56,079 nucleotides of DNA from NCBI GenBank assembly GCA_028822935.1, contig JAPKCM010000029.1:1-56079 (forward strand), in the 5' to 3' direction. Position numbers and translations under genes: made by a program. Below, piece by piece: positions 18,973-36,900 of the stretch. Position 1 is the first letter of the stretch. Each line of letters begins with the position of its first letter. Source of the DNA: Akkermansiaceae bacterium. Lineage in GTDB: Bacteria > Verrucomicrobiota > Verrucomicrobiia > Verrucomicrobiales > Akkermansiaceae. The notes beneath the pieces are model-generated. The model was not told the DNA's origin. It saw only the letters and a list, made by a program, of their open reading frames with translations, and searched no databases.

Positions 18973-20430
18973 TTAGGCCAAGATCTTCTTAAGAACCTTC
19001 ATCGGCTCCACCCCGGTGAGACGCTGATCGAGACCCTGATAACGAAGAGTAAATCGTTCATGATCGATCCCGAGGCAATGAAGCACCGTGGCGTTGATCT
19101 CGTTGATGTGCACGGAATCGGAAACCGGATTGTAGGAATATTCATCGGTCTCACCTAAAGATACTCCGCCTTTAATTCCACCGCCTGCCATCCACATACA
19201 GAAGTTCCGTGGATGGTGGTCGCGTCCGTAGCTGGTTTCGGTAAGCGTTCCCTGTGAGTAGACCGTCCGCCCGAATTCTCCGCCCCAAATGATCAAGGTT
19301 TCATCGAGCATGCCTTGCTGTTTGAGATCGGTCAGGAGAGCGGCACAAGCCTGATCAGTGTCCTTGCACTGATTACCCATCTCTTTGGGAAGGTTTCCGT
19401 GCGAGTCCCAGCCACGGTGCATGATTTGCACCATGCGCACGCCTCGCTCGACGAGCCGTCGCGCCAGAAGCGCACTCGAAGTAAACGAGCCCGGACGATT
19501 CACGTCCTCGCCATAAAGATCCATCGTCGCTTTCGACTCTTTACTAAAGTCCGTCAAATCTGGAACGCTCGCCTGCATGCGGTAAGCCATTTCATACTGG
19601 GAAATGCGAGTCTGGATATCCGGATCGCCGAACTTTTCAAATCCGCGTTGGTTCAGCTCACCCAATGAATCAAGCATCGCCCGACGGTCTCCCCGATTCA
19701 CTCCCGGAGGATTCTCGAGATAAAGAACGGGATCATTCCCCGAGCGCAGAACCACTCCGCTGTGTCGTCCCGGGAGAAAGCCCGGCCCCCACATTCGGCT
19801 GAAGAGTGCTTGGGCATTTGAGCCATTGGGAAAATTTGGCGTCAAGGCCACAAAGGACGGAAGGTCACTCGTCTCCGCGCCCAATCCGTATGAGACCCAC
19901 GAGCCCATACTCGGCTTCCCGGAAACTTCACTTCCGGTCATGACAAAAGTGCAAGCCGGATCATGGTTGATCGCGTTGGTATGCACCGTCTTCACCACCG
20001 CGATGTCATCAACAAGCTTGGCAGTATGCGGAAAAAGTTCGCTCACCCAGCGGCCACATTCACCATGTTGGGCAAACTTGAATCGCGACGGAGCCACCGG
20101 AAATCTTCCCTGTCCGCTTGTCATCGTCGTGATGCGATCGCCAAGGAACTCCTTCGGAAGATCTTTGTTATATTCCTTCAATAAATTCGGCTTGTAATCC
20201 CAGGTATCGAGCTGCGAGGGTCCACCATTCATGTGGAGATAGATCACCGCTTTGGCCTTACTTGCGAAGTGCGGCAAGCCCTGAAGGCCCGGATGCACTT
20301 CGGACGGAGCTGCTCCGATTCGCGGGGCACCCATCAATGAAGCCATGGCAATTCCGCCAAGACGGATTCCACTATCGCCAAAAAATTGACGACGGGTCTG
20401 AAGAAGTTGATTTTCTAAAAATGGATTCAT
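18973..20430 (-). CDS. DUF1501 domain-containing protein
   Basis: 485 aa, full family length. A twin-arginine-like signal (TRRQFFGDSGIRLGGIAMASL) indicates Tat export. DUF1501 proteins belong to the alkaline phosphatase/sulfatase-like fold; typical blocks here are VIYLHMNGGPSQLDTWDYKP, WDSHGN, IIWGGEFGRT and DHHPRNFCMWMAGGGIKGG. No activity is established for the family. It starts 8 nt downstream of the PSCyt1/PSD1 gene, the standard PVC two-gene pair. Its C-terminus gives the reference for the remnant at 40768-40905. Confidence 0.93.
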   Translation of the reverse strand: MNPFLENQLLQTRRQFFGDSGIRLGGIAMASLMGAPRIGAAPSEVHPGLQGLPHFASKAKAVIYLHMNGGPSQLDTWDYKPNLLKEYNKDLPKEFLGDRITTMTSGQGRFPVAPSRFKFAQHGECGRWVSELFPHTAKLVDDIAVVKTVHTNAINHDPACTFVMTGSEVSGKPSMGSWVSYGLGAETSDLPSFVALTPNFPNGSNAQALFSRMWGPGFLPGRHSGVVLRSGNDPVLYLENPPGVNRGDRRAMLDSLGELNQRGFEKFGDPDIQTRISQYEMAYRMQASVPDLTDFSKESKATMDLYGEDVNRPGSFTSSALLARRLVERGVRMVQIMHRGWDSHGNLPKEMGNQCKDTDQACAALLTDLKQQGMLDETLIIWGGEFGRTVYSQGTLTETSYGRDHHPRNFCMWMAGGGIKGGVSLGETDEYSYNPVSDSVHINEINATVLHCLGIDHERFTLRYQGLDQRLTGVEPMKVLKKILA

Positions 20431-20438
20431 AGGGCGGA

Positions 20439-23400
20439 TCAGTTGCGAACGATGGCTTCGTCCATATTCAAAATAAGATTGGCGACCAAAGTGAAGGCCG
20501 CGAGTTCGGAAACATCTAAATCACCAGGCGGCTTGGATTCACCAAACCCAACTGCCTTCTTGGCATCTTCAGGAACTTTCTCATATCGGGCCAATTGGCG
20601 CTGATAGAGCTTCGTCGCAATCGTGAGTTCTTCGACACCGGGAGATCGGGACAAGACACTTTCAAATGCAAACCCAAAACGTTCGTTGAGATCGGAAGAC
20701 GACTGCATCATCCGTGTTGCCAGTCCACGGGCGGCCTCATAGTGCTGCACATCATTCATCAACTGGAGAGCCTGCAGCGGTGTATTACTACTTTCCCGTT
20801 GCAGGCAGGATTGCTCGCGCGACGGAGCATCGAAATTGGTCATCGCAGGATGGGGCGCCGTTCGTTTAAAGAAGGTATACACCGAACGTCGATACAGATC
20901 AGTCCCCTTGGATTGCTTATAGTTGCGCGTATTTGACCCACCGAAAGCCACCGGCTCCCAGATGTTCGGCGGCTGATAAGGGTTTACTCCTTTTCCACCC
21001 AATCTGTGATCCATCAATCCACTCACGAAGAGCGCCTGATCGCGTAGCTGCTCGGCAGATAGTCTAAATCTCGGACCCCTCGCCAACTTGCGATTTTCAG
21101 GATCCTGAATCCATCGCGGACTAGCCGCCTGGCTCTCTTGACGAAAGGCCCGGCTCATCACCAATGCGCGCATGATTTTTTTAACATCCCAGCCATTGTT
21201 CTGAAAACGAAGTGCCAGAAAATCCAGTAGTTCAGGATGGCTTGGCAGATCGCCCTGCGTTCCGAAGTCATGACTGGTTTTCACGAGTCCAATTCCAAAC
21301 ACTTGCTGCCAAAACCGATTCACCGCAACTCTTGCGGTCAGCGGATTCTCCGGAGCCACCAGCCACTTTGCCAGGTCGAGACGATTAGCCCGATCACCGC
21401 TCTTCTTGAGTGGTGGAAGAACCAGAGGAGTATTTGGCTCTACCTTTTCACCCGGCTTGTCGTATTCGCCGCGAATCATGACAAAACTGTCGCGCGGCTT
21501 GGGAAGATCTCGAAAGACAAAAGTCGAAGGGATCCCTGCATCAAAGTCAGCATTTTCTTTCTTCACTTTCGCCAGTTCTCCTCTGATCGAGGTAAAGGCA
21601 TCGCGCGTGCTCTGACAAACTTCCTGAAGATAATAGGACCTGATTTGCGCCAACTCCTCTGGCTTTCTCGGCTTGTCCGGTCCTTCTTTCAGCCAACCCC
21701 GAAGCGCGCCTTTCGCCTCTGGAGTATCTTTTCCCACCCGTGATTTTCGCCAGGCAAGAAGCGAGAGATTCGGGTCCAAAGCAGGATCAGTCACTCCGAT
21801 AACGCCAAAGCGATCAAAGTAAGCCGTCCCACCATGCACCGTGAAAGCAAAGCCGACAACCTTGGCCCCAGTGGCTAGACCCATCTTTTCAGCGGGCACT
21901 TCAAGACGCACCCATTGCCCCTTTTTCGGAAGGTCACCGGCACGGTAGCGCTCGGTCGTTCCCTTCTTTCCAAAATCGATGACATCAGCTCCCCACAGGG
22001 CACGATGACTCCAGTCCTTGGTGTGGAATTGAATCATCACCTCTTCGGGCGGATCCTCCGGATCGAGATAGACGTGCAAAAAGAACTTCGCCTGGGAAGG
22101 CACCGTGAGAGGAGCTGCTCCCGCCTGATAGTAATCCTGCGCCATTCCTGCCCCGCCACGCTTCAACGATTTCTTCCCACTCTTGACGGGGTTTTCAACG
22201 AAGGTCAACGGATGTCCGGAAACCCCAACTTTCGCCCCCTCTGGAAAGGCATCGTCAAACCACACTTCTTCGTGCTCTGATCTTTTTGGAGGCGGATTTT
22301 TCTTAGCCGGATCTTCATATTTCAGACTCACCGAAATTGCGCTCATCTTCTTTTCGAGAACTTTCTGGCGATCTGAAAAACCCTTTCTCTTCTCATCATA
22401 ATCCGGCGTCTTCACCTTGATCACCGGTTGCGTGAGGAGTTTATTACCGTCCATCGCCGGATCGGCATTGGAGTTAAAGAAAGCGTAGAGCGAATAAAAA
22501 TCCTTTGAGGTGATCGGATCATACTTGTGATCATGACACACTGCGCATCCTGCCGTTAAGCCCAGCCAGACCTGCGCCGTAGTGCTGGCTCGATCGACGG
22601 CATAACGAAAGACAAATTCCTTGGCGATACTTCCGCCTTCACCGGTCGTGACATTACATCGATTAAATCCCGTCGCCACCATCTGCTCCTGGGTCGAATT
22701 AGGCATCAAGTCCCCGGCCAGTTGTTCGATCGTGAAATCATCGTAGGGCAGATTTCGATTAAACGAATCGATCACCCAATCTCGGTAAGCCCACATCTGA
22801 CGCTCGTTATCGAGGTGCATTCCATGAGTATCTCCGTAGCGCGCCGCATCCAGCCAATGCCGCGCCATTTCTTCGCCGTAGTGCTTCGAGTCCAAATAGC
22901 GATCCACCATCTTGCCAAAGGCATCCGTCGATTGATCGCTCACATATTTCTCCACCTCCTCAATCGTCGGGGGCAATCCAATCAGCGCAAAACTCACTCG
23001 TCGAATCAGAGTCGGGCGATCCGCCTCCGGAGAAAACTCCATGCCTTCTTTGGTCAACGACGCGCCCACAAAACGATCTATCTCCAAGCCCTCGCCTCCT
23101 GGAACCTCAGCCTTCACCGGTGCCACGAAGGCCCAGTGCGTCTGATACTCAGCCCCTTCCTGAATCCATTGCCGTAGGATCGACTTCTCCCCCAATGTCA
23201 GCTGCTTATGAGAATCCGGTGGCGGCATCATATCGTCCTCATCCTTGGTGATGATTCGCAGCCAGGCTTCACTTTCATCCGGCTTCCCTGCAACAATGGG
23301 TGACTTGCCTCGCTTTCTCTTTTTAAAAGCCCCCTCCGGAGTATCCAATCTCAACTCACCCTCACGGGTCTCCTCATCAAATCCATGACAGGCAAAACAC

Positions 23401-23504
23401 TTGTCAGAAAGAATCGGACGAATGTCTCTATTAAACAATAAGGATTTCTCCCCCGGCGCCTGAGACACCAGAATCAGAAAAAGCAAACTTTGACCAAATT
23501 TCAC
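20439..23504 (-). CDS. Planctomycete cytochrome c (PSCyt1/DUF1549/DUF1553) protein
   Basis: 1021 aa with a signal peptide (MKFGQSLLFLILVSQAPG). The PSCyt1 domain has CFACH at 36-40 followed by LRLDTPEGAFKKRK and DDMMPPPDSH. DUF1549 (PSCyt2) spans ~145-350 (HWLDAARYGDTHGM, CAVCHDHKYDPI), so a second CxxCH motif is present. A concanavalin-like insertion lies ~400-580, and DUF1553 (PSD1) covers the C-terminal third (NRFWQQVFGIGLVKTSHDFG, QSCLQRESSNTPLQALQLMND). It is a periplasmic multi-domain cytochrome of unknown substrate, co-transcribed with the DUF1501 gene 8 nt downstream. Expanded families of this pair are a hallmark of PVC bacteria that degrade complex glycans. Confidence 0.95.
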   Translation of the reverse strand: MKFGQSLLFLILVSQAPGEKSLLFNRDIRPILSDKCFACHGFDEETREGELRLDTPEGAFKKRKRGKSPIVAGKPDESEAWLRIITKDEDDMMPPPDSHKQLTLGEKSILRQWIQEGAEYQTHWAFVAPVKAEVPGGEGLEIDRFVGASLTKEGMEFSPEADRPTLIRRVSFALIGLPPTIEEVEKYVSDQSTDAFGKMVDRYLDSKHYGEEMARHWLDAARYGDTHGMHLDNERQMWAYRDWVIDSFNRNLPYDDFTIEQLAGDLMPNSTQEQMVATGFNRCNVTTGEGGSIAKEFVFRYAVDRASTTAQVWLGLTAGCAVCHDHKYDPITSKDFYSLYAFFNSNADPAMDGNKLLTQPVIKVKTPDYDEKRKGFSDRQKVLEKKMSAISVSLKYEDPAKKNPPPKRSEHEEVWFDDAFPEGAKVGVSGHPLTFVENPVKSGKKSLKRGGAGMAQDYYQAGAAPLTVPSQAKFFLHVYLDPEDPPEEVMIQFHTKDWSHRALWGADVIDFGKKGTTERYRAGDLPKKGQWVRLEVPAEKMGLATGAKVVGFAFTVHGGTAYFDRFGVIGVTDPALDPNLSLLAWRKSRVGKDTPEAKGALRGWLKEGPDKPRKPEELAQIRSYYLQEVCQSTRDAFTSIRGELAKVKKENADFDAGIPSTFVFRDLPKPRDSFVMIRGEYDKPGEKVEPNTPLVLPPLKKSGDRANRLDLAKWLVAPENPLTARVAVNRFWQQVFGIGLVKTSHDFGTQGDLPSHPELLDFLALRFQNNGWDVKKIMRALVMSRAFRQESQAASPRWIQDPENRKLARGPRFRLSAEQLRDQALFVSGLMDHRLGGKGVNPYQPPNIWEPVAFGGSNTRNYKQSKGTDLYRRSVYTFFKRTAPHPAMTNFDAPSREQSCLQRESSNTPLQALQLMNDVQHYEAARGLATRMMQSSSDLNERFGFAFESVLSRSPGVEELTIATKLYQRQLARYEKVPEDAKKAVGFGESKPPGDLDVSELAAFTLVANLILNMDEAIVRN

Positions 23505-24094: not shown

Positions 24095-25294
24095 ATGGAC
24101 GATCAAGAAAAAAAGCACCGTCGCCGCATCCTTCTGGAGATCGAAACGGCCATCGCTCCGGGTCGTGATATGCTTCGTGGTATCGCCAAGTTTTCGGGGG
24201 AAATTCATCGCTGGGACATCCACCACAATGCAGGAAACTGGTCCCTTCATGGAAGTATTTCGGGACCATCTCACATCGAGCCTATCTCACCACATCACCA
24301 CATCGACGGTGTCATCACCCGCATCTACGATGAAGCAGGACGCAAGCGCGCGCACGAGCTCATTTCTCAGGGCATTCCCGTTGTTGATATCCTAGGCGAT
24401 CACGGAGACCGCTCCCTCCCGCTCGTCCACACCGATGACAACGCCATCGCCAAAGTCGCCCTCCGCCACCTCATCGAGCAGGGCTTCGGACGCTTCGCCT
24501 TCTGCGGAATCGGCGACACCCGCTGGTCAGACCAACGCGGCCAAAGCTTCACTCATGAAGCCGAAAAACTCGGCATCAGAGTCCCTTCGTTCACCGTTTG
24601 CAAATCCCATCAAGAGCACGACCAAAGCAACACCGGGCACATCGAAGAGTGGCTCAAAAGCCTTACCCTCCCTCTCGGCATCTTCGTCTCCTGCGACCAC
24701 ATCGCCCCCCTCCTCCTCAACGCCTGCGCTCGCCTTGGCATCATTATCCCCGAAGCACTCGCCGTTGTTGGAGTGAACAATGACACCGTCGCCTGCAATG
24801 TCTGCAGCCCCACTCTCTCCAGCATCGATGCCGCCCACTTCGAAGTCGGCTACCGCGCGGCCCGACTCCTTAACGATCTTCTGGAAGACACTTCCCCAGA
24901 GTCCAATACCATCCTCGTCCCTCCCAGCCGACTCGTCGTTCGCGGCTCTTCCGGCGAACTCGCCATCAGCGATCCTCTCATCGCCCGCGCCTCCCGCTTC
25001 ATCAATCGCAACGCCAGCAGCCCAATCGGCGTCGATGACGTCGTCGCCTCCGTCCCTCTCTCCCGCCGCGAACTCCAACGCCGCTTCCGCAGCATCACCG
25101 GCCGCACCATCCACGCCAGCATCCTCGATGCGCGCATGAGCATCGCAAAACGTCTCCTCGGCAACCCGGAATACACCGTCGATGCCGTCGCCGAGCTCTC
25201 CGGCTTCGGCAGCCGACAACACTTCACCAAAACCTTCAAAGCGCAAACGGGCATCACGCCGGCAAAATACCGCCGCGAATTGGTCTTTCGTTAA
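24095..25294 (+). CDS. XylR-type transcriptional regulator (periplasmic-binding-like + AraC HTH)
   Basis: 399 aa. Residues ~10-285 have a LacI/PBP-like sensor domain (DGVITRIYDEAGRKRAHELI, VHTDDNAIAKVALRHLIEQGF, IPEALAVVGVNNDTVACNV), as in XylR. The C-terminal ~105 residues are an AraC-type double HTH (SRRELQRRFRSITGRTIHA and LSGFGSRQHFTKTFKAQTGITPAKYRREL). It probably senses a sugar. The next gene, a selenoprotein candidate, starts 11 nt after its stop, so they likely share a transcript. It is a candidate to bind the GCRCAAA direct repeats at 30658 and 31663, and single boxes occur in its own upstream region, which would allow autoregulation; both are inference. Confidence 0.92.
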   Translation: MDDQEKKHRRRILLEIETAIAPGRDMLRGIAKFSGEIHRWDIHHNAGNWSLHGSISGPSHIEPISPHHHIDGVITRIYDEAGRKRAHELISQGIPVVDILGDHGDRSLPLVHTDDNAIAKVALRHLIEQGFGRFAFCGIGDTRWSDQRGQSFTHEAEKLGIRVPSFTVCKSHQEHDQSNTGHIEEWLKSLTLPLGIFVSCDHIAPLLLNACARLGIIIPEALAVVGVNNDTVACNVCSPTLSSIDAAHFEVGYRAARLLNDLLEDTSPESNTILVPPSRLVVRGSSGELAISDPLIARASRFINRNASSPIGVDDVVASVPLSRRELQRRFRSITGRTIHASILDARMSIAKRLLGNPEYTVDAVAELSGFGSRQHFTKTFKAQTGITPAKYRRELVFR

Positions 25295-25305
25295 CCTCCC
25301 CAACA

Positions 25306-27609
25306 ATGAAATCTCTCCTTCTAGCCGCCCTCGTCCTTTGCTCCTGCAAAAGCGACACGACCTCGAAACCGCCTCCTGAGGTTTCGAAATCACCCGATGA
25401 TGTCGCAAAGGCCGTCGTTGAAAGCGAAGAAGCCATCCAGAAACTCACCCCCAAACTCAAAGCGCTCGCCTCTAAAATCATTGCAGGAGCGGAACCCGAC
25501 CTTCCCGATGAATGGAACAAGATTCGCGATGGCCAGTGGGTCAATGGTTCATTCGGAGTTCTTTCCGCCACCTTCGATAATTCAAAATTCATCACGAAAA
25601 CCAAATTCGAAGGACTCTTCCAATCCGCCACCGGGGCTCTCACTGGCGTCCGAACGAAACAAAAACTCACCTGGAAATTTGACTCCGCCGGACAAGCCAC
25701 TTTGTCCAAATGGACACCATTGGAATTCCATCTCATCGAATCTCCCGCCCCACTCTTCGAAGACGTCACCAAAAAGGTCATCCCATCAAGCTTCGCACGC
25801 GACGAAGCACAGCGTTCCGCCCATCAGGAAATCACGGAGCAAGCTCTCGCCGAGAAAAAACTCGTCATGCCCAAGCGCGAGTATGCCGATGTTCCCGATA
25901 TGGAGAGCGCCCAGCAGTATCCCTCGGTCAGCGTGGTCGACTACGATTCCGACAGTCACGATGACCTCTTCATCACTGCCCGCTACACCGAGCCGCAACT
26001 TTTCCGGAACAAGGGCGATGGAACCTTCGAGGACGTCACCATCGAGTCAGGACTCACCCCGGGGTATTGCGTCAATTTCAGCCTCTTCGCTGACTTCGAC
26101 AACGATGGCGATCCCGATGCCTTGGTCTGCCGCTCGCTCGAACCCACTCTCTATTACCAAAATAACCAGGGCAGCTTCGAAAATGTGACTCACAAACTCA
26201 CTGACCTCGGCGAGCAATTCTTTGTCGTTTCCGCTGCGGCCGCAGACGTCAATCGCGACGGTCTTCTCGATGTCTATCTCACCACCTACACCCCCGGAAC
26301 CGATGTCAGGCCCATATGGAAAGAGCGCTACCTGCCACCTGCAGACGCAGCCCGTCTCGACACCCTCTCAGCAACTGCCCATCCCTACTTCGATGATCGC
26401 GGCGGCCCAAACATCCTCCTCATGAATCGCGGCGGCGGGCGGCTGGAACGTTCCGGCGGGGAAGTCGTTAAACTTTGGCGTAAAAGCTATCAACCAGCCT
26501 GGGCGGACGTTGACGGCGACGGTGACGATGACCTCTATGTTTGCAATGATTTCTCTCCTGATACCTTCTTGCGAAACGAGACCCCGAAGGGAGCCGCCGA
26601 GCCAGTCTTCGTCGATGCCTACGCCGAGCATTTCCCGGACGGAGAGATGGCCTTCGGAATGGGTGCCTCCTTCGGAGACTACGACAACGATGGCGACCTC
26701 GATCTCTTCGTCTCCAACATGTATTCCAAAGCAGGGAATCGCATTATCGATCTGGTCGGCAAAGTCGACCCCCGCATCAAAGTGGCGGCACGAGGCAACT
26801 TCATGTATCGTAATGATGACGGAGTTTTCCACCAAGTCGCAAAACCGGACGCCCCGGAGACTCGCACGGGATGGTCCTTCGGCGGTCAATTCGCTGACTT
26901 CAACAATGACGGACTCCTCGACCTCTACGTTCCAAGCGGCTACTACACCGCGCCCAAGAAGGTGGCCACGGAAGTGGACTTGTGAAGTTGCTTCTGGAGC
27001 ACGGTCGTGCTCTCCGATCCCACCAAATCAATAAAATTTCGTACTTCCGAACATTGGAAATCTCCTCTGCTCAACTTCCAGTTGCGAGTCGAACAAAGCA
27101 ATCCGGGCGGCCCGGCTTTCCGAAGTAATTCCCTCAGTGGAAATGAGCGCAACCGCCTTCTCCTATCCAGCGCCGGTGGCTTCACGGACAACTCTCTCGT
27201 CAGCGGAATTGACGGCAAAGAAGACGCCCGCTCATTTTCCCTTTTCGACTACGACAACGACGGTTGGCTCGACATCGCCCTTGCCAGCGCCAACGCCCCA
27301 CGACTGCGTATCTTCCGCAACAAGCTGGGCGAATCAGGCCATCTAGGACGCATGATTCGTCTAAAGTTAACTGGCACCGTAAGCAATCGTGACGCCTGTG
27401 GCGCTCTGGTAACAATCAAAACAAGCAAAGGAAATCGAGCCCTTCAAAAAGCTCTCGGCGTTGGGCTTTCCTCTCAAAATTCGAGCAAACTCTGCATCAC
27501 TTTGGCAGCAGATGAAACACTGGAAAAAATCTCAGTCCGCTGGCCCTCCGGCAAGGTAAGCACTCATTCCATCGAAGGCTCAGCGCCCCTCATTTCACTG
27601 ACTGAGTAG
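25306..27609 (+). CDS. FG-GAP/ASPIC-UnbV lipoprotein with in-frame TGA, predicted selenoprotein
   Basis: I annotate one 767-residue protein read through the TGA at 26983-26985 (residue 560). A standard reading gives a 559-aa and a ~200-aa product. Lipoprotein signal peptide with lipobox LCSC (Cys14). FG-GAP/VCBS repeats fill ~200-555 (DYDSDSHDD, DFDNDGDPD, DVDGDGDDD, DYDNDGDLD, DFNNDGLLD). After TGA the same frame continues SCFWSTVVLSD, a further repeat (LFDYDNDGWLD) and an ASPIC/UnbV domain (RDACGALVTI ... ISVRWPSG). The paralogue at 27595-30540 has TGA at the same point and aligns on both sides. The downstream half has no ATG or RBS of its own; its only early start, GTG at 27007, lies inside the hairpin. 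A Cys follows two residues after the predicted Sec. Function unknown; it should sit on the outer face of a membrane. Confidence 0.82.
26997..27012 (+). promoter_or_regulatory. Predicted bacterial SECIS element
   Basis: RNA hairpin GAGCAC-GGUC-GUGCUC: 6 perfect pairs and a GGUC tetraloop, starting exactly 11 nt after the UGA. This matches the known E. coli fdhF layout (11-nt spacer, GGUC apical loop, read by SelB). The paralogue has the same spacing and loop, with a compensatory base-pair change. Confidence 0.8.
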
Positions 27610-30540
27610 GCGCAATTGCGAAAGAGTGGGCGTTCCCTTGAGCGCTTTCAGGACACGACCTTGATCATCCAGAATGAAGGTCGACGGAAGAGGCATTTCT
27701 CCAAATTTTTCTATCATCAACTTCTCAACCGCCTCACGTTGCACGGCACCTGAATCACTCAGGATTTCATAGGGAGGATTGGTCTTCTTTTGGAATTTCG
27801 TCAGCTTTGCCCCATCGTCGTCGGGATCAATCGGGAAGGCATAAAAACCAACATCCTCGCCCACTCTTTCAGACAAACGCCGAAGATGAGAAACTTCACC
27901 GAGGCAGACCGGACACCAGGTCGCCAAGGTCACTACGACGTTGAGCTTTTTCTTTACCAGGAGATCCAATCGGCCCCTTGAGAGCAAGCGGGTTTTCGTT
28001 TTCGGAACCGAAGCAGCAATCTGGCGAATCATTTTGGGCACAGCCTCTCCGGGATTCTCAAAGATCGTCACAAGCGATTCGGTTTCGATCTTCTCCATCA
28101 CTGATTTCTTCCCGGAAGGCCAAATGACACTGACCTTGTCTACCACTGTCGATTTTCCAATTCCAATGGTCAACGTGTCGCTGTTCTGGGCCGCAAAGCC
28201 ATCTCCACCACGAAGTTCGCGGCGAATCGTTTTCCCCGCGACCTCCACAAGAACATGCGCGCCATATGCGTCGCGGGAACTCCACGTCTTGTCAGGCGCC
28301 CCTCCTCGATTTCCACCTACCAGACGAATATTAATGGAATTTCCGGCGTCCTGGATTCTATTATGAAAAAGTTGAAGTTGCGGATTGTTGGTATTGGTCA
28401 AAACAATGTCGCTTTTGCCATCGTGATCAAAATCCAAAAAAGCAAAGGCCCGACCATCGGCCAGGCTACCCAGACCGCTGAGGCCCGAAATATTTTCAAA
28501 GCTCTCACCACCATGATTCAGGAAGACACTATTACTTTCATTCCCGCTGAAAGAGTGACTTCGTATCACCGGCTTTCCATCCACTTTCTTACGCGTGTCC
28601 AAGACGCCCGGCATGCTGGCATACTGACTGGCATCGACTCCTTCTTCTAGGAACCGTTTATTAAGATTTGTGTCCGAGCGCACGACCGAGCGCCAAAGGC
28701 TACTTCACAAATCCACCTCCGTCGCCGTCCCTATCGGTGGCGTGTAGAGGCCGTTCGCCACGTAAAGATCCAAGAAACTGTCGTTGTTTAAGTCGGAAAA
28801 CTGACCTCCCCAAGACCACCCCGCTTGCGAGACCGACAGCTCCGTCGGCTCGAATTTTTTACCGGTATTTTTCAACAGCTTATTTCCGGCCACCCCTTCA
28901 TACATCCGTTGTTCCAGCCCCTCGAACATCCCGGTGATCCGGCTCCCGGCCTTGCTATACATGTAGGTGAAATAAGGATCCTGGAAGCCATCGTTATTGT
29001 AATCGCCCAAGGTCACCCCCATCCCGAATCCCTGCAGTTCGCTCCCGGCAACAGCGCGGGTGACGTCAGTTAATTGACCATCATCGTTCCGGAAAACGTA
29101 GTCCGGCGCGTAATCGTTCGCCACGAAGAGATCCGGGTCGCCATCGTTGTCATAATCAGACCACGTGCTCTGGAAACTCGACAACCAAAGGTCCGCGCCT
29201 CCCGCTTGAGCAGCCTGGGAAAACTTCCCGCCTCCCTGGTTGATCAACAAGACATTCGGCGGACCTGTCAGTCGAAAGATCGGGTGATCCAATCCCCGGC
29301 GACGTTTCCATTCCTCCTGTTCCTCAAGATTTAGAAACTGTTTCGAGAGAATATTCCGAGGCCTCGTAATCGGAAGTCGATAGGTCGAGACATACAAATC
29401 AAGGAGTCCGTCGCCATTGACATCCGCCGTCGACATCGAGGAGGTCCAATAGGGCAAAGGACAATCCAGATCCTCCTCGCTTCGTTCGAAAAACGATCCG
29501 TTGACATTCACATAGTAGCGCCCCCTTTCGAGACTCCGCCCGATAAAGACATCCTTATCGCCGTCATTGTCAAAGTCCGCAAACAGAGAGCAATTACACA
29601 CTCCGTCGATGTCCAAGCCCACTTTCCCCGCGATGTCCTCAAAAGTTCCATCGCCACGATTCCGCCAAAGCTGGTTCTTTCCCCACCGGGCCGTGACATA
29701 AAAATCATCCCAACCATCCTCGTCGATATCCACCACGGACACCGAGGTATGTTGATCCAGCGAATCCCAGCTGGTGATGTATTCCCAATAATGTTTAGGA
29801 TAGGCGAACTTCGTCCCGCCGGTAAAGAAGACTTCCCGGATATAACGTTCGTGAATCGACTCCCGCGCTTTTGCCAAATCAACGGGCGAAGTCAGCACAC
29901 GATTCAGCACCTCGCTGAACAAGGGGGCAGGCGAGATGAGTGATTTCAGTTCCGCAATTTTCAATCGAGAAATGAGCCAGTCCTCGTCTTCCTTCTCCCA
30001 CCAGACTTTGACCTTCCCCTTCCAGGCCCCTTGTTCTTTCTCCACCGTTCTTCCCCGCGCACTCAATTTAAGTTCCGTGAAAAATGTGCCGGGTTGCACT
30101 CCCGTTTCTCCACGCAGCACGCCGAAACGGGCATCTTCAAAAGCATGGACCTCTGCCCAAAGCATTGACCAAAGTCCTTTCTCCAAGTTTTTCAACTCCT
30201 CGGACTGCGCTTTACTCAGCCATTTGTAGTGTCGGATTTCAGGAGACTCGTCTGTCGAGAGTAATGCAGATTGGTCCAGATCCACCACTCCTGCTCCTGG
30301 TGTGAACAGCTTGGCATTCCAGGAAACATCCAGATTCCGAACCGCTCTGCTCAAGCGGTTGATCGGAGTCACGAGCTCCGAGATGATCTCCTCAGTCTCT
30401 ACCATCGTCGTATAGGCCACATCCGCAGATTCACTTTCCACTTCTGCAGGAGCCTCTGTTTTCTCATCCTGAGAACAGGAAACCATAAACAGAACTCCCC
30501 CCAAGAGTAGCTTCCTCCCCCGAATTCCAGATGCGCACAT
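27595..30540 (-). CDS. FG-GAP/ASPIC-UnbV/thioredoxin lipoprotein with in-frame TGA, predicted selenoprotein
   Basis: One 981-residue protein if the TGA at 28705-28707 (residue 612) is read as selenocysteine. The ATG at 30540 gives a lipoprotein signal peptide with Cys22 in FMVSC; in-frame ATGs at 30552 and 30600 are alternatives. FG-GAP/VCBS repeats lie ~270-600 (DIDEDGWDD, DFDNDGDKD, DYDNDGDPD). Across the TGA it reads TEVDL-Sec-SSLWRSVV, then FLDFDHDGKSD, an ASPIC/UnbV domain (SSRDAYGAHVLVEV, VSVIWPSGKKS) and, unlike the paralogue, a TlpA-like thioredoxin domain with CPVC at 876-879 (TLATWCPVCLGEVSHLRRL). It is convergent with the paralogue and their 3' ends overlap by 15 bp. A redox role linking Sec and the CxxC pair is attractive but unproven. 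Confidence 0.82.
28678..28693 (-). promoter_or_regulatory. Predicted bacterial SECIS element
   Basis: Minus-strand RNA hairpin GCGCUC-GGUC-GUGCGC, starting 11 nt after the UGA. Five pairs plus one internal U-U mismatch, with the same GGUC loop as the paralogue. The second pair is C-G here and A-U in the paralogue, a compensatory change that supports a conserved RNA structure. Confidence 0.78.
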
Positions 30541-30844: not shown

Positions 30845-31597
30845 ATGAAAGCAACAATCCTACTCACCCTCGCTGGCTGCGCACTTGCAAGCTTCGCCGG
30901 TGCTGCGACGATCTCGCATCGCTGGTCGTTTGATACCGATACCACTGACTCAGTCGGCGGGAATACCGGCGTCCTCGTTGGAGGTGCCACCGTAGGAAGC
31001 GGTGCCCTGCAACTCACCGGCCTCGGCGCCAACCGCGACGCCAACCACATGGGATTCACAAGTCAGGTCGATATCGGAGGCAACTTCGGCACGTCGGGGG
31101 TGACCATCGAAACTTGGTATACCGACAGCGGCACCGGCACTTGGGGAAAGCTCTTCCAGTTTGGTAATAATGTCGCCGGTCAGGAACTGGCCTACACTCA
31201 TAGTCGGGGAAACGGGGAGATGAGCGGCGTTGATCGCAACGGAGCCCAACTCTTCGATGAGCAAGTCAGCCAAAACACCCCGCACCACCTCGTTATCTCA
31301 GTCTCTTCCGATGGCAGTCTCAACACTTGGCTCGACGGAGCCCAAAAACTCACCAACGTCGCCACTAACGACCTTTCAAATATCAACACCACCTTCGAAG
31401 GAATCGGCGCCACTAGTTGGAACGATCCCGGCATGACTGGAACCGTCGACGAATTTCGTATCTACTCCGGCGAACTAACCGCCGGTGAAGTCACAACCAG
31501 CCTCGCTGCCGGCCCCAATACCATCGTCCCCGAACCCAGCGGTCTCGCCTTGGCCCTCTTCGGTGGCTTACTGGCCATTCGCCGTCGTCGCGCCTAA
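30845..31597 (+). CDS. LamG domain PEP-CTERM protein
   Basis: 250 aa. Signal peptide MKATILLTLAGCALASFAGA. Residues ~22-225 form a LamG/concanavalin A-like beta-sandwich (HRWSFDTDTTDSVGGNTG, GVTIETWYTDSGTGTWGKLF, HHLVISVSSDGSLNTWLDG, GTVDEFRIYSGEL). The end is a PEP-CTERM signal: VPEPSG, hydrophobic stretch ALALFGGLLAI, then RRRRA. It is probably exosortase-processed and envelope associated, possibly binding glycan. It has its own promoter and terminator. The LamG unit is closely related to those in the next two genes, showing local duplication. Confidence 0.92.
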   Translation: MKATILLTLAGCALASFAGAATISHRWSFDTDTTDSVGGNTGVLVGGATVGSGALQLTGLGANRDANHMGFTSQVDIGGNFGTSGVTIETWYTDSGTGTWGKLFQFGNNVAGQELAYTHSRGNGEMSGVDRNGAQLFDEQVSQNTPHHLVISVSSDGSLNTWLDGAQKLTNVATNDLSNINTTFEGIGATSWNDPGMTGTVDEFRIYSGELTAGEVTTSLAAGPNTIVPEPSGLALALFGGLLAIRRRRA

Positions 31598-31630
31598 TTT
31601 CCAGTCACTTAATCATTATAAATCAAAATA

Positions 31631-31661
31631 CCCGCAGTCCAAACTGGCTGCGGGTTTCTTT
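31631..31661 (+). terminator. Rho-independent terminator
   Basis: CCCGCAG...CTGCGGG stem (7 bp, with an inner CC/GG extension across a bulge) followed by TTTCTTTT, 34 nt after the LamG PEP-CTERM stop. Confidence 0.88.
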
Positions 31662-31662
31662 T

Positions 31663-31690
31663 GCGCAAATTATTCCGAAATTGGCGCAAA
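31663..31690. promoter_or_regulatory. GCRCAAA direct-repeat operator, second copy
   Basis: GCGCAAA at 31663 and 31684, 21 bp apart, with TTCC between and TTG before the second copy, as at 30658-30685. The second half-site is 90 bp upstream of the -35 box at 31774, the same distance as in the other copy. It directly abuts the preceding terminator. Confidence 0.55.
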
Positions 31691-31773
31691 TCACCCCATA
31701 AAACCAACAGAGAATAAGCCCTAATGCACTTCACTTAAGTCTATTATAGAAATAACGCGATGCAACCAAATCC

Positions 31774-31803
31774 TTGACAACGACAGACCAAAACTCCTAT
31801 CAT
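31774..31803 (+). promoter_or_regulatory. Sigma70-type promoter of the double-LamG gene
   Basis: TTGACA at 31774-31779 and TATCAT at 31798-31803 with an 18-bp spacer; predicted start ~30 nt before the ATG at 31843. Confidence 0.7.
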
Positions 31804-31842
31804 CTAGGCCTAATATAAGCGCCACACACTCACCAATCTTCG

Positions 31843-33828
31843 ATGAACTCTAAAACCTCCACTCTCCCCCTCATCGCCTCCCTGCTTCACCTCAGCCTCT
31901 TTTCTTCAGAAGCGGCCACTCTAGCCAATCGCTGGTCATTCGACACCGATACCACCGACTCGGTGGGCGGCAATACCGGTGTCCTCGTTGGGGGTGCCAC
32001 CGTCGATCCGGGACGTCTCTCCCTCACCGGTCTCGGCACAAGCACCGAAGCCAACCACATGGCTTTCACCACGCCGGTCGATGTAGGCGTCAACTACGGA
32101 GCCACCGGCATCACGATCGAAACCTGGTACACCGACACCGGCACCGGCACTTGGGGAAAACTCTTCCAGTTCGGCACCAATGCCGCCGGCCAAGAAATTG
32201 GGTATACCCACACAAGGGGAAACGACCAGATGAGCGGAGTCGATCGCGACGGCTCCAAACTCCTCGAGGAGCAGGTCACCCAGAATGAAGAACATCACCT
32301 CGTCATTAGCATCTCTTCTGACGGCAATCTCAACGCCTGGGTCGATGGTGACAAAAAAATCACAGACACCGACACCAATGATCTCGCTAATGTGACCTCC
32401 GATTTTGAAGGGATTGGCGCGACCAGTTGGAACGATCCCGGCATGGCCGGATCAGTCAATGAATTCCGCGTTTGGAGCGGAACTCTTTCGGAATTCGAAG
32501 TCACTCAAAACTTCACCAACGGACCCAACACCTTACCAAATTTCGATGACACCGATTTCGATGGCATCCCGGACGACTGGGAGCTCTTACAGACGGACAT
32601 CACCGATCTCACTCAATTGGACGGCACCCTCACAGGCCCGGGACCCGGCGCAGGAACCGGCGACTTCGATGGCGACGGCTTATTTGATCTTGAGGAATTC
32701 CAGAGAAATACTGATCCTATCGTCAACGACACCGATACCGATGGCCTCCTCGATGGCCCGGAAGTCAAAACCCACCTCACAAACCCTCTCGTCGTCGATA
32801 CCGACGGCGACACCCTGAGCGACGGAATCGAAGTGAATGATCACGGCACTAATCCCACCCTGAAAGACTCCGACATGGATCTCATCGACGACAATGTCGA
32901 ACTCGATAACGGCACCTCGCCTATCGACGCCAGCGATCCCGGTCCCTTCACCGGAACTGAACTCACTCACCGATGGTCTTTTGATACCGACACCTTCGAC
33001 TCGGTGGGCGGCAATACCGGTATCCTCGTTGGGGGTGCCACCGTCGATCCGGGACGTCTCTCCCTCACCGGTCTCGGCACAAGCACCGCCGCCAACCACA
33101 TGGCCTTCACCACGCCGGTCGAAGTTGGTGTCAACTACGGAGCCACCGGCATCACGATCGAATCCTGGTATACTGACACCGGCACCGGCACTTGGGGAAA
33201 ACTCTTCCAGTTCGGCACCAATACTGCCGGACAAGAACTTGCCTACACTCATAGCCGGGGAAACGGGGAGATGAGCGGAGTTGATCGTGAAGGAGCCAAG
33301 CTTCTTGGCGAGCAAATCACTCAAAATGAAGAACACCACCTCGTCATTACCATCTCTTCCGACGGCAATCTCAACACCTGGGTCGATGGCGACAAAAAAA
33401 TCACGGACACTGACACCAACGATCTCACGAACGTCACTTCCGCCTTTGAAGGCATCGGCGCAACCAGTTGGGGCGATCCCGGCATGACCGGATCCATCAA
33501 CGAATTCCGCATTTGGAAAGGAACCCTCTCCAGCACCGATGTTGCCGACAACTTTGCTACCGGGCCGGATTCCCTCCTCGGTGGTGAAGGCCTCAGTATT
33601 ACTTCCATCACCCGGGACAACGGGTCCGGAGCCGTCACCTTGATCTTTAATTCCATCCCCGGCCATACCTACCAGATCGACAGCTCGCCGACCCTCGTCC
33701 CCGCCATTTCGCCGCAATGGCTGGATGTCGATGACAGCTTCTTCGCCACTGGAAATCTCTCCACGTTTATTGACACGACAGCTTCGGGGGCCACGCTCTT
33801 CTATCGTATCAAGGACGTGACCAATTGA
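31843..33828 (+). CDS. Exported protein with two LamG domains and TSP3 repeats
   Basis: 661 aa with a signal peptide ending SSEAA. LamG 1 (~25-225) and LamG 2 (~372-570) are nearly identical to each other. Between them lie TSP3-like calcium-binding repeats (DFDGIPDDWE, DFDGDGLFDLEEF, DTDGLLDGPEV, DTDGDTLSDGIEV, DSDMDLIDDNVEL). The last ~75 residues are the module seen at the ends of other exported proteins here (TYQIDSSPTL ... LFYRIKD). There is no PEP-CTERM anchor. Likely a secreted, possibly glycan-binding protein. It has its own promoter, operator and terminator. Confidence 0.9.
   Translation: MNSKTSTLPLIASLLHLSLFSSEAATLANRWSFDTDTTDSVGGNTGVLVGGATVDPGRLSLTGLGTSTEANHMAFTTPVDVGVNYGATGITIETWYTDTGTGTWGKLFQFGTNAAGQEIGYTHTRGNDQMSGVDRDGSKLLEEQVTQNEEHHLVISISSDGNLNAWVDGDKKITDTDTNDLANVTSDFEGIGATSWNDPGMAGSVNEFRVWSGTLSEFEVTQNFTNGPNTLPNFDDTDFDGIPDDWELLQTDITDLTQLDGTLTGPGPGAGTGDFDGDGLFDLEEFQRNTDPIVNDTDTDGLLDGPEVKTHLTNPLVVDTDGDTLSDGIEVNDHGTNPTLKDSDMDLIDDNVELDNGTSPIDASDPGPFTGTELTHRWSFDTDTFDSVGGNTGILVGGATVDPGRLSLTGLGTSTAANHMAFTTPVEVGVNYGATGITIESWYTDTGTGTWGKLFQFGTNTAGQELAYTHSRGNGEMSGVDREGAKLLGEQITQNEEHHLVITISSDGNLNTWVDGDKKITDTDTNDLTNVTSAFEGIGATSWGDPGMTGSINEFRIWKGTLSSTDVADNFATGPDSLLGGEGLSITSITRDNGSGAVTLIFNSIPGHTYQIDSSPTLVPAISPQWLDVDDSFFATGNLSTFIDTTASGATLFYRIKDVTN
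31927..33560 (+). repeat. Intragenic tandem LamG duplication
   Basis: The segment at about 31927-32520 is repeated at about 32967-33560, offset 1041 bp (347 codons), with long stretches of identical bases (for example 31960 onwards versus 33001 onwards). The high DNA identity points to a recent duplication or gene conversion. Confidence 0.85.
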
Positions 33829-33861
33829 GCAAATCTGCTCCAGCGATTCATTCTTCGCTTC

Positions 33862-33894
33862 AGCGCCGGAATACTCCTCCGGCGCTTTCTTTTT
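33862..33894 (+). terminator. Rho-independent terminator
   Basis: AGCGCCGG / CCGGCGCT stem (8 bp) followed by TTCTTTTT, ~35 nt after the stop of the double-LamG gene and just before the CotH gene. Confidence 0.88.
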
Positions 33895-33909
33895 CCCACA
33901 CACCTATTT

Positions 33910-36900
33910 ATGAAGTTTTTCTTATTCACTTCGCTCCTCATTGTCAGCCTGATGACCTCAAAAGGAGCCACCTTGGCCAACAGGTGGTCTTTTGACACCA
34001 ACTCCAACGACTCAATCGGTGGGATCACCGGAGTGCTCCAAGGAGGTGCTACCATTAGTGCGGGACAACTGAGTCTCACTGGAGCAGGTAGCAGCACGAC
34101 GGCCAATCGCATGACGTTCTCCTCACCCATCGACATCGGCGGGAACTTCGGAGCGACCGGCGTGACGATTGAAACTTGGTACACCGACACTGGCACCGGC
34201 ACTTGGGGAAAGCTCTTTCAGTTCGGCAACAACTCCGCCGGTCAGGAACTGGCCTACACTCACACTCGCGGAAGTGGGCAGATGAGCGGCGTCGACCGAG
34301 ACGGAACACAATTGCTTGGCGAACAAATCACGCAAAACGAAGAACACCATCTCGTCATCACCGTGTCCTCTGATGGCAATTTAAACACCTGGCTCGATGG
34401 CGTGCAAAAATTGACGAACACCAACACCAACGATCTCTCAAACGTCACTACCTCTTTCGAAGCCATCGGTGCCACCAGTTGGGGCGACCCCGGAATGAAA
34501 GGCACCGTCAATGAGTTCCGCATTTGGTCCGGCGAACTTACCTCTGCCGAGGTCTCTACAAACTTAACCTCCGGCCCCAACAACGCCCCCGGAAACGGCC
34601 CCAACATTTCCTCCTTCACCACCTCTCACGCCACCCGCCACGAAGGCGAAACAGCCACCTTCTCCTGGGATATCGATGATTCAAGTGTCACCGGCTCCCT
34701 CGCGCTCGAAATCCGCGATCCAGCCAATACTCTCATCCACTCCGCTTCCACCCCCACCGGCAGCACCAACGCCATCATGGGAGACACCGATGGAACCCTT
34801 TCCACTTTCACCTACACCCTCAACACCTGGGACACCGACACCCCCGAATCCATCCAAACCCGCACCCTCAACATCGAAGTCGACCCCGGCCTCCCAATCG
34901 CCACCGACCAATCTCTCCAAACCGTCGAAACCTTACCCCTCGCGCTCGCCCTTACCGGAACTGATCCCAATACCCACCCCAATCCCTCTCTCACTTTTTC
35001 AATCGCCTCCCCACCCTCCGGCGGCACCCTCACCGGCACTGCCCCCACTCTCCGCTACACCGCCAACAACGGCTTCATCGGGACCGACTCCTTTACCTTC
35101 AAATCAAACGACGGCAAGTATGACTCCGCTCCCGCAACCGTCACCATCGTCGTCGATCAAGCCCCCACTGCTCCCGTCTCTCTCTCTTTGAGCAGTCTCG
35201 ATATCCCCATCACCGTCTCCAACGGAGGCTACCTCGCTGCCCTCACCACCAACGACCCCAACCTCCTCGATACCCACTCCTACACCCTAGTCTCCGGCGT
35301 CGGAAGCGTTGACAACAACCTCTTCGCCATCGTCGGAAACCAACTCCGCGCCGCTGCCAATTTCTCCGACCAGATCGGAAATCTCTTCAGCATCCGCCTC
35401 CGTACCAGCGATCAAGGCGGCCTCTTCTTCGAGCAAAGTTTCACTCTTCATGCGGTCGAACCTTCCAACGATATCGTCATCAACGAAATCCACGCCAACC
35501 CGCCCGAAAACCAGATCCGTCAGGAATTCATCGAACTCCACAATCTCTCCACTTTCTCAAAAGATATCTCCGGATGGCGTCTCAGCAGCGCCGTCAATTT
35601 CACCTTCCCCTCGGGCACCACTCTCCCCGCCGGTGGCTACCTCGTTATCGCCGAAGACCCAGTCACGCTCCAGTCAACCCTCGGCGTCACCCCCCTCGGC
35701 CCCTTTATCGGCAACCTCAATTCCGCTGGCGAAACAGTTCGTCTCCGCGATGCCTCCGATGCCGTCATCGATGAGGTCGACTACAAGGTCGGCTTCCCTT
35801 GGCCCGTCGCCAGTGATGGCGGAGGAGCCTCCATCGAACTCATCAATCCCTCCCTCGACAACGGCCTCGGCAGTTCTTGGCGCGCCTCTATTCCCCAAAC
35901 AGCTCTCCCTCAAACTACCCTCCTCAATTTCTCCGATTCTTCCTGGAGTTGGCGTCCTGGCGCCACCGAAGCCTCCTCTCCCACATCCACCTGGCGCACA
36001 CCCGGCTTCTCCGAGAACGCCTCCTGGACCCCCAACTCTCAATTCCCCATCGGCTACGGAAGCGTCAACGGCGTCACCATAAACACCACCGTGTCCGGCA
36101 TGCGCCTCAACTACAGTTCCCTCTTCCTGCGCAATACCTTCACCAGCGCCCCCGGCGAACTCCCCTCACAACTCCTCCTCAACTTCACCGCCGATGACGG
36201 CATCGTAGTCTGGATCAATGGCACCGAAGTCGAGCGACGTCGCTTTGACGAAAACGAGGACCCCACCATCGACGATCTTGCGTCCGGCACCGGCACCGAA
36301 GGCCAATACGAAGACAAACTCATCATCAACGCAGGCTCGTTCTTAAACGAAGGTTCCAACACTATCGCCGTTCAACTTTTCAACGCCCAAACCAGTAGCA
36401 GCGACCTGGGTTTCGATCTCGAAGTCGTCCGCCCTGCCTCCGAAAACGCGCCGCCCCAGCCCAGCCCAGGCGCCAAAAATACTGCTTTTTCCCAGAACGC
36501 CGCCCCCAACATCCGTAAGGTCAATCACACCCCGGAACAACCCGCTTCCACCGACTCCGTCCTCATCACCGCCCGCGTCACCGACCCCGATGGTCTCGCT
36601 TCGGTCAGCCTCGAATACCGCGTCATCGCCCCCGGCGACTACGTCCCGGCTCGACTCCCGCTGCCCATCATCCGCAACAACATCACCACCACCCAAACCC
36701 GTCCGAACAACCCCGATTTCGAATCCGACTGGACCACCCTCTCCATGACCGATGACGGCTCCAATGGCGACGCCCTCGCTGGTGACGATCTCTTTTCCAC
36801 CACTCTCCCCGCCGCTGGCCACCGCAACCTCGTCCGCTACCGCATCACCGTCACCGACACCGTCGGAGAAACCGCCCGCGTTCCTTACAACGATGACCCA

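Follow-up and report, generated by a model that had tools for sequence, protein, structure and literature searches.

In the window, the whole analysed stretch of DNA of 56,079 nucleotides, two convergent genes (A and B, overlapping by 15 bp) are each interrupted by a single in-frame TGA, and the question is whether this codon ends the protein, marks a defect or is read as selenocysteine (Sec). Taken as a whole, the best explanation, which we hold to be highly probable, is that both genes encode members of a large family of bacterial selenoproteins that is apparently unlisted so far; that these are exported selenol oxidoreductases of the CRTAC1 type is an inference.

An earlier note on this DNA had described one TGA after the residues TEVDL in each gene, with 207 (A) and 369 (B) further open codons, and had inferred products of 767 and 981 residues with Sec560 and Sec612. 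Re-reading of the open reading frames bore out the TGAs and the open lengths: the sole in-frame TGA is codon 560 of 767 in gene A and codon 612 of 981 in gene B (30540-27595), and the two fall in the same alignment column. The read-through frames agree with the inferred products, for which there is no protein evidence. The features are as follows.

25306..27609, + strand: gene A, predicted exported FG-GAP/ASPIC (CRTAC1-like) selenoprotein, 767 aa, Sec560, U-S-C motif, without thioredoxin domain
26983..26985, + strand: TGA of gene A, inferred to be read as Sec560 from the alignment column of homologues
26997..27012, + strand: SECIS-like hairpin of gene A, pairs 15-30 to 20-25 (U of UGA = 1), loop GGUC
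27394..27567, + strand: ASPIC/UnbV domain of gene A, aa 697-754, 3' of the TGA
27595..30540, - strand: gene B, predicted exported FG-GAP/ASPIC selenoprotein with fused redoxin domain, 981 aa, Sec612
28705..28707, - strand: TGA of gene B, inferred to be read as Sec612 from the alignment column of homologues
28678..28693, - strand: SECIS-like hairpin of gene B, loop GGUC, one U-U mismatch
28069..28269, - strand: ASPIC/UnbV domain of gene B, aa 758-824
27640..27954, - strand: redoxin/TlpA-like thioredoxin domain of gene B, aa 863-967, WCPVC

Paralogues and selenocysteine machinery in the same genome

Pfam profiles PF13517, PF01839 (FG-GAP) and PF07593 (ASPIC/UnbV) matched both proteins above their cut-offs. 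The best FG-GAP matches lay 5' of the TGA, and the ASPIC/UnbV matches of both genes and the redoxin match of gene B lay 3' of it. The C-terminus of B matched PF08534 redoxin (3e-10) and contained a CxxC (WCPVC); in the 208-residue tail of A, neither a CxxC nor a match to a thioredoxin (Trx) HMM was found. Both N-termini carry a hydrophobic leader and a Cys, which we take to be consistent with a lipoprotein signal.

Downstream ORFs, as listed mechanically, begin at GTG 27007 (A) and GTG 28683 (B), in both cases 24 bases past the first base of the UGA. Since this GTG encodes the second V of VV, the earlier claim that the shared residues S-[CS]-[FL]-W-x-x-VV-x-SD precede any re-initiation codon holds for S-x-x-W-x-x-V and fails for the remainder of the motif.

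The genome to which the window belongs (G000, 4.59 Mb, 156 contigs) was searched with read-through protein A. Of 51 matches, 11 contained exactly one TGA and 40 had no stop inside, the latter including several pieces of one gene. All 11 TGAs were located at one column, in the context DL-U-[SM]-x-x-W-[RS]-x-V-[VA], within ORFs of 767 to 1368 codons, and identity to gene A across the whole alignment was 28-38% for the ten other TGA genes. The earlier note understated the finding, as A and B are two of 11 such genes in their own genome. The same column in 11 genes is far beyond chance.

A Trx-like domain was present in nine of the 11 genes and absent in A and L058, and TPR-like repeats followed it in at least two scanned paralogues (L061, L064). 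Among homologues crossing the Sec column in this genome, 11 carried TGA and two carried TGC; the latter, C133:1375-2766 (KDY[C]SQFWRHD) and C143:87546-88694 (KDY[C]SHYWTQD), were free of TGA. TGA also serves as an ordinary terminator in this genome, in genes B, L059 and L060.

The search for selA, selB, selC and selD that the earlier note had proposed found all four in the genome, by SelA, SelB and SelD profiles and by tRNA-Sec. The tRNA-Sec exceeded the Rfam cut-off with 53.9 bits and was also called tRNA-SeC by ARAGORN. SelB scored 278 bits, over its cut-off, with model positions 2-357 of 581 matched, and SelA scored 486 bits. SelD (386 bits; G000:C53:6429-7358, covered by L025 and L068) contained one TGA in the context CGG-U-ASK, presumably resembling the known Sec site of SelD, and from this sequence SelD itself seems to be a selenoprotein.

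A hairpin after the UGA and a sister clade with cysteine

Hairpin positions were numbered from the U of UGA (= 1), and two stem registers, split by the base at position 20, were distinguished. Class I (n = 27, including A and B) pairs 15-30 to 20-25, and class II (n = 64) pairs 15-31 to 20-26. The apical G22-U23 was invariant in 91/91 TGA sequences. Standard pairs occupied 91% of cells in class I and 97% in class II, compared with 9-67% and 19-66%, respectively, when the partner was slid by 1-3 columns. Double-change cells numbered 7 in class I (0-4 when slid) and 17 in class II (0-13 when slid), and the slid control of class II with 13 such cells was only 40% paired. The most variable pair, 18-28 of class II, occurred as G-U, A-U, G-C, C-G, U-G and U-A, position 18 being the third base of an Arg codon.

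As a further control, the 11 codons after the TGA were recoded synonymously by each ORF's own codon usage. Relative to the recoded sequences, native stability had a mean z of -1.6 (91 sequences), with 37% in the best 5%, and control windows elsewhere in the same ORFs gave a mean z of -0.06 (n = 179), with 7% in the best 5%. Folded singly against dinucleotide shuffles, the hairpins of A and B were unremarkable (z -1.2 and -1.7), so the claim of a hairpin rests on the alignment evidence. We assume that its distance from the UGA resembles that in E. coli fdhF.

In each of ten pairs of relatives, third codon positions contributed a similar share of the differences 5' and 3' of the TGA, for example 0.60/0.61 for L066/L092, 0.62/0.66 for L213/L214 and 0.49/0.48 for gene A/L191. 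Judged by this measure, coding constraint appears alike on both sides of the TGA.

The two Cys paralogues served as queries for collecting a sister clade from 189 genomes of the order to which the window belongs, and both are counted among its 28 members (18/189 genomes). Cys occupied the Sec column in 25/28 members (21 TGC, 4 TGT) and Asp in 3/28; a second Cys stood at +5 in 22/25 of the Cys members. GU at positions 22-23 was found in 0/28 members compared with 91/91 TGA forms, so that Cys accompanies absence of the presumed SelB-binding loop. As the members were found with Cys-form queries, the Cys share is no unbiased estimate. The placement of the clade is also unsure, because the tree joins its rows to two long Sec rows, which calls for a long-branch warning.

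Other residues were seen at the site in a few relatives. L095, from a Candidatus Sulfotelmatobacter MAG, has Asn (AAT), with a hairpin that is still stable and a loop that is altered; going by its sequence, this hairpin is perhaps a SECIS relic after loss of Sec. In L245, L248 and L249 of the sister clade, Asp replaces Cys/Sec and the SQFWRHD motif is kept, and these members are perhaps a non-redox offshoot.

Distribution of the TGA form and the reading of the UGA

In a scan of named genomes, 80 loci were kept of 422 relatives, and 44 segments crossed the Sec site. Among the matches listed, TGA was present in 26/44 of these segments; L095, a near relative, has Asn, and the other 17, which were distant or had low scores, showed a different residue or a gap. 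No Cys form occurred among the 44 listed segments, though one search pattern spelled Cys. The TGA-bearing MAGs were labelled Verrucomicrobia (Akkermansiaceae, Roseibacillus, others), Planctomycetota (Pirellulaceae, Fuerstiella, others), Gemmatimonadetes (one) and Acidobacteria (one).

Of the 189 genomes surveyed in the order, 31 had a match at E<=1e-50, and since the match was only stop-free in four of these (G020, G036, G040, G044), the TGA form was assigned to 27/189. SelA was chosen for the co-occurrence statistic because tRNA-Ser near the cut-off muddies detection of tRNA-Sec in these relatives. SelA (E<=1e-60) was found in 26/27 TGA-form genomes compared with 34/162 others (Fisher p 2.4e-14). 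The exception, G055, is 77% complete, and SelA is present in its congener G059; one of the 26, G124, has a SelA fragment below the cut-off at a contig end.

There were 170 matches at E<=1e-50 in the order. The 150 listed all carried TGA (one with an additional TAA), and five of the other 20 were viewed, of which four were stop-free and one had TGA. G098 and G150 hold at least 12 TGA members each; copies per genome are lower bounds, because at most 12 candidates were scored in each.

In total, 91 distinct TGA sequences were collected, with TGA in 91/108 distinct rows, rows partly picked for TGA. Members L151-L221 were mostly picked from matches already known to bear TGA, which biases the counts made for SECIS and Trx; less bias attaches to the own-genome search, the named-genome scan and the 189-genome survey. 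Both residues that the earlier note had called decisive at the Sec column of homologues were recovered, TGA in the 91 distinct sequences and Cys in the 25/28 sister-clade members. Homologues truly ending at TEVDL, which it had named as a refutation, were not seen, although such sequences would have escaped a selection that required the match to span the site.

If the UGA were a real stop after TEVDL, any downstream product would lack selenium and would come from near-cognate read-through or from re-initiation at the GTG. TGA does terminate genes B, L059 and L060, and the GTG lies at the same 24-base distance in both A and B. However, the TGA form tracks SelA across the 189 genomes, the UGA is followed by a hairpin whose GU is invariant and which shows compensatory changes, U-S-x-x-W is conserved although it lies upstream of the GTG, and Cys in the sister clade goes with a missing loop GU, which leaves a real stop very improbable. 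Organism-wide reassignment of UGA to an ordinary amino acid would equally leave the frames open, but each gene has one TGA at a single site and the Sec machinery is present; this reading is refuted by the TGA terminators of other genes, and its remaining chance is minimal. Pseudogenes or sequencing errors, that is, chance nonsense at one codon, might be suspected because the genomes are mostly draft assemblies and L162 also has a TAA. The column is nevertheless common to 91 distinct sequences from many assemblies, a recurrence that refutes such an origin, and coding constraint looks alike 3' of the TGA; we give this reading practically no credence.

The reading of the UGA as Sec rests on the fixed site of the codon together with the SECIS-type hairpin and the SelA/SelB/SelC/SelD machinery. 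On this sequence evidence, Sec insertion is in our judgement close to certain and has nearly as much backing as can be had without protein data, and the claim of the earlier note for both genes is supported by the TGA column, the hairpin, the machinery and the coding constraint; no Sec peptide has been shown.

Several features of individual loci were also recorded. L162 (G147:C184) is a family member with TAA 24 codons past the Sec TGA, for which assembly error and decay are alternatives. In the tree, the own-genome paralogue L066 was closest to L092 of an Akkermansiaceae MAG, from which we infer that the window probably derives from this family or a neighbouring one. At L190 (G012:C1:212000-221100), from another family of the order, the closest tree relatives of A (L190_+0) and B (L190_+1) adjoin; L190_+1 is 67% identical to gene B, and the pair lies on one strand rather than convergently. 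Given this pairing, A-type and B-type proteins may work together. L075:1631-8931 holds two Sec genes of the family in tandem, with a four-base overlap and an own TGA and hairpin each. When 28 loci were compared all against all, no recurrent gene neighbour hinting at a substrate was found, no non-family cluster exceeding four loci. Ten plasmid records contained matches; identity was 25-29% throughout, and the annotated ones bore the names CRTAC1, VCBS or FG-GAP.

Predicted fold, proposed resolving thiol and relation to known proteins

AlphaFold2 models of A and B, each from a 20-row alignment, had pLDDT 82.7 and pTM 0.87 (A) and 76.8 and 0.77 (B). The best solved match of the A model was murine CRTAC1 (9etn_A; Foldseek E 5.6e-22), and VIA-align of residues 148-767 with 9etn_A gave Z 38.3 over 453 residues, the next row having Z 31.7. 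Against a viral structure library, the matches were propeller-like, and the best of them had E 2e-12 and a TM-score of 0.35 relative to the query. Sec560 starts helix 559-569 in the A model, and Sec612 starts helix 611-621 in the B model. Redox-active Cys and Sec are commonly located at helix N-termini. The invariant columns of the family are dominated by the Asp of DxDxDG loops.

A and B resemble CRTAC1 and other FG-GAP-ASPIC proteins in domains and their order, and the modelled fold of A is that of murine CRTAC1. In contrast to the CRTAC1 family, they have Sec (Cys in relatives) at a helix start before the ASPIC region, residues 1-147 of A lie outside the structural match, and a C-terminal Trx domain is common in the Sec family.

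Trx fusion and a Cys two residues after Sec (U-x-C) were counted in 85 decidable TGA forms, five truncated tails and L162 being excluded. A Trx domain was found in 68/85 (67 by HMM at E<1e-5, and L093 by motif, 3e-5), with CxxC in the tail of 67/68, the exception being L212. U-x-C was present in 12/17 members without Trx and in 0/68 with it (raw Fisher p 5e-11). This raw value is not phylogenetically independent, as the tree implies few events: seven Trx changes and four U-x-C changes were inferred, and independent pairs (2-3 opposite, 0 same) gave p 0.25 or more, which is not significant. Altogether, 80/85 members have Trx fusion or U-x-C beside Sec. The five with neither are L182, L185, L188, L193 and L194, and a TlpA-like gene lies upstream of L193. 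Together with the C-x4-C of the Cys clade, this pattern leads us to infer that a selenol/thiol redox centre is favoured.

Alternatively, Sec could serve the propeller as a structural residue or a metal ligand instead of taking part in turnover as a thiol, with the fused Trx domain separate in role. The dominance of DxDxDG Asp among invariant columns, the Asp or Asn in place of Sec in a few relatives and the five members without an evident resolving thiol are all compatible with this. Against it, the common replacement in the sister clade is Cys (25/28, of which 22 have the second Cys at +5), and Trx fusion or U-x-C accompanies Sec in 80/85 members. We consider the structural role unlikely, without dismissing it, and a thiol/selenol redox role, which is inferred and mechanistically plausible but unproven, somewhat the better supported.

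With the UGA read as Sec, as the sequence evidence supports, translation proceeds through the ASPIC domain and, for the majority of the members examined, through a Trx-like domain as well. Under the redox reading, the product would be an exported, calcium-binding beta-propeller of the CRTAC1 type, in which Sec at a helix N-terminus (DL-U-S-x-x-W-R-x-V-V) would act as a redox-active selenol. A selenenyl intermediate could then be resolved by a nearby Cys (U-x-C, gene A) or by a fused CxxC domain (gene B), and in the sister clade Cys stands in place of Sec, mostly together with a second Cys at +5. Our best guess is that these proteins are exported selenol oxidoreductases that reduce peroxides or disulfides; export and activity are inferred, and the substrate is unknown. 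The broader proposal is evenly balanced between right and wrong: a new class of exported selenoenzyme, with a propeller Sec and an interchangeable resolving thiol (U-x-C, fused CxxC, or Cys-x4-Cys in the selenium-free sister clade), amplified in some Verrucomicrobia-like bacteria to at least 11 genes per genome; in these it may consume most of the selenocysteine and be the reason why the Sec trait is kept.

The TlpA/ResA/DsbE-like oxidoreductases (PF08534 Redoxin, PF00578) resemble the C-terminal domain of B and of most paralogues, CxxC included; unlike them, the Sec family has this domain in fused form, with Sec about 260 residues before the CxxC. A 2026 review, self-described as the most comprehensive inventory, gives 119 prokaryotic selenoprotein families and subfamilies in Table 1 (PMC13188914). 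Its families share with ours the UGA, the adjacent hairpin, SelA/B/C/D and Cys relatives, and a Trx-like fold is ascribed to most characterized families; in contrast to those Trx-fold selenoproteins, Sec lies here in the propeller part, and the Trx domain, where fused, holds CxxC. No FG-GAP, ASPIC/UnbV, CRTAC1 or beta-propeller family appears among the 119 entries of that table. The impression in the earlier note that the family is not among described selenoproteins thus stands as far as this inventory goes, and a search of open-licence full-text literature for selenoprotein or selenocysteine together with FG-GAP, UnbV, CRTAC1 or cartilage acidic protein likewise returned nothing relevant.

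No NCBIfam (June 2026) selenoprotein model occurred among the matches listed for the six of 11 own-genome TGA genes scanned (for L064, 25 of 34 matches). PMC13188914 credits families to Haft and Gwadz 2023 and Haft and Tolstoy 2025, all but MduS (a methyltransferase) with NCBIfam models, and none of those models was among the matches listed for the six genes. A planctomycete genome paper places selenoprotein candidates in its supplement S9 (PMC4807772), and our claim of novelty is made without that list. CRTAC1 family genes beside hydrazine-synthase-like genes have been described in clusters of Planctomycetota and other taxa (PMC12758564); the word selenocysteine is absent from its main text, and, in contrast to those clusters, hydrazine-synthase-like neighbours were not noticed at Sec-family loci. 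The authors of deep-Sep state that the method may miss selenoproteins without Cys homologues (PMC12013277). As the Cys forms here make up a distant clade, the present family may have been overlooked in this way, which is an inference.

Bacterial selenium use is usually judged by known families; to these, the present one contributes 151 or more matches with a TGA from 27/189 genomes of one order. A stop-codon-based ORF call splits such a gene at the TGA, so that the protein is truncated and the ASPIC and thioredoxin parts become a separate ORF. Selenocysteine is placed in the CRTAC1 propeller, a protein type for which no redox role was found in a limited search of open-licence literature. The proposed redox centre is testable, and its resolving thiol appears to shift among positions and domains.

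Some observations concern the surroundings of the two genes. A regulator with Peripla_BP_3 and AraC-type domains (window 24095-25294) lies on the same strand as gene A and ends 11 bases before it, and a common transcript is possible. A DUF1501 gene adjoins a PSCyt1/PSCyt2/PSD1 gene at 18973-23504. The genome contains 55 CotH-kinase matches, and CotH lies near 5/10 own-genome loci by our count, where about two would be expected by density (an estimate); the enrichment is weak, and no weight is placed on it. At 30845-39540, three consecutive genes have highly similar LamG-like starts, as judged by eye; a PEP-CTERM-like tail ends the first of them, and a CotH match lies in the third.
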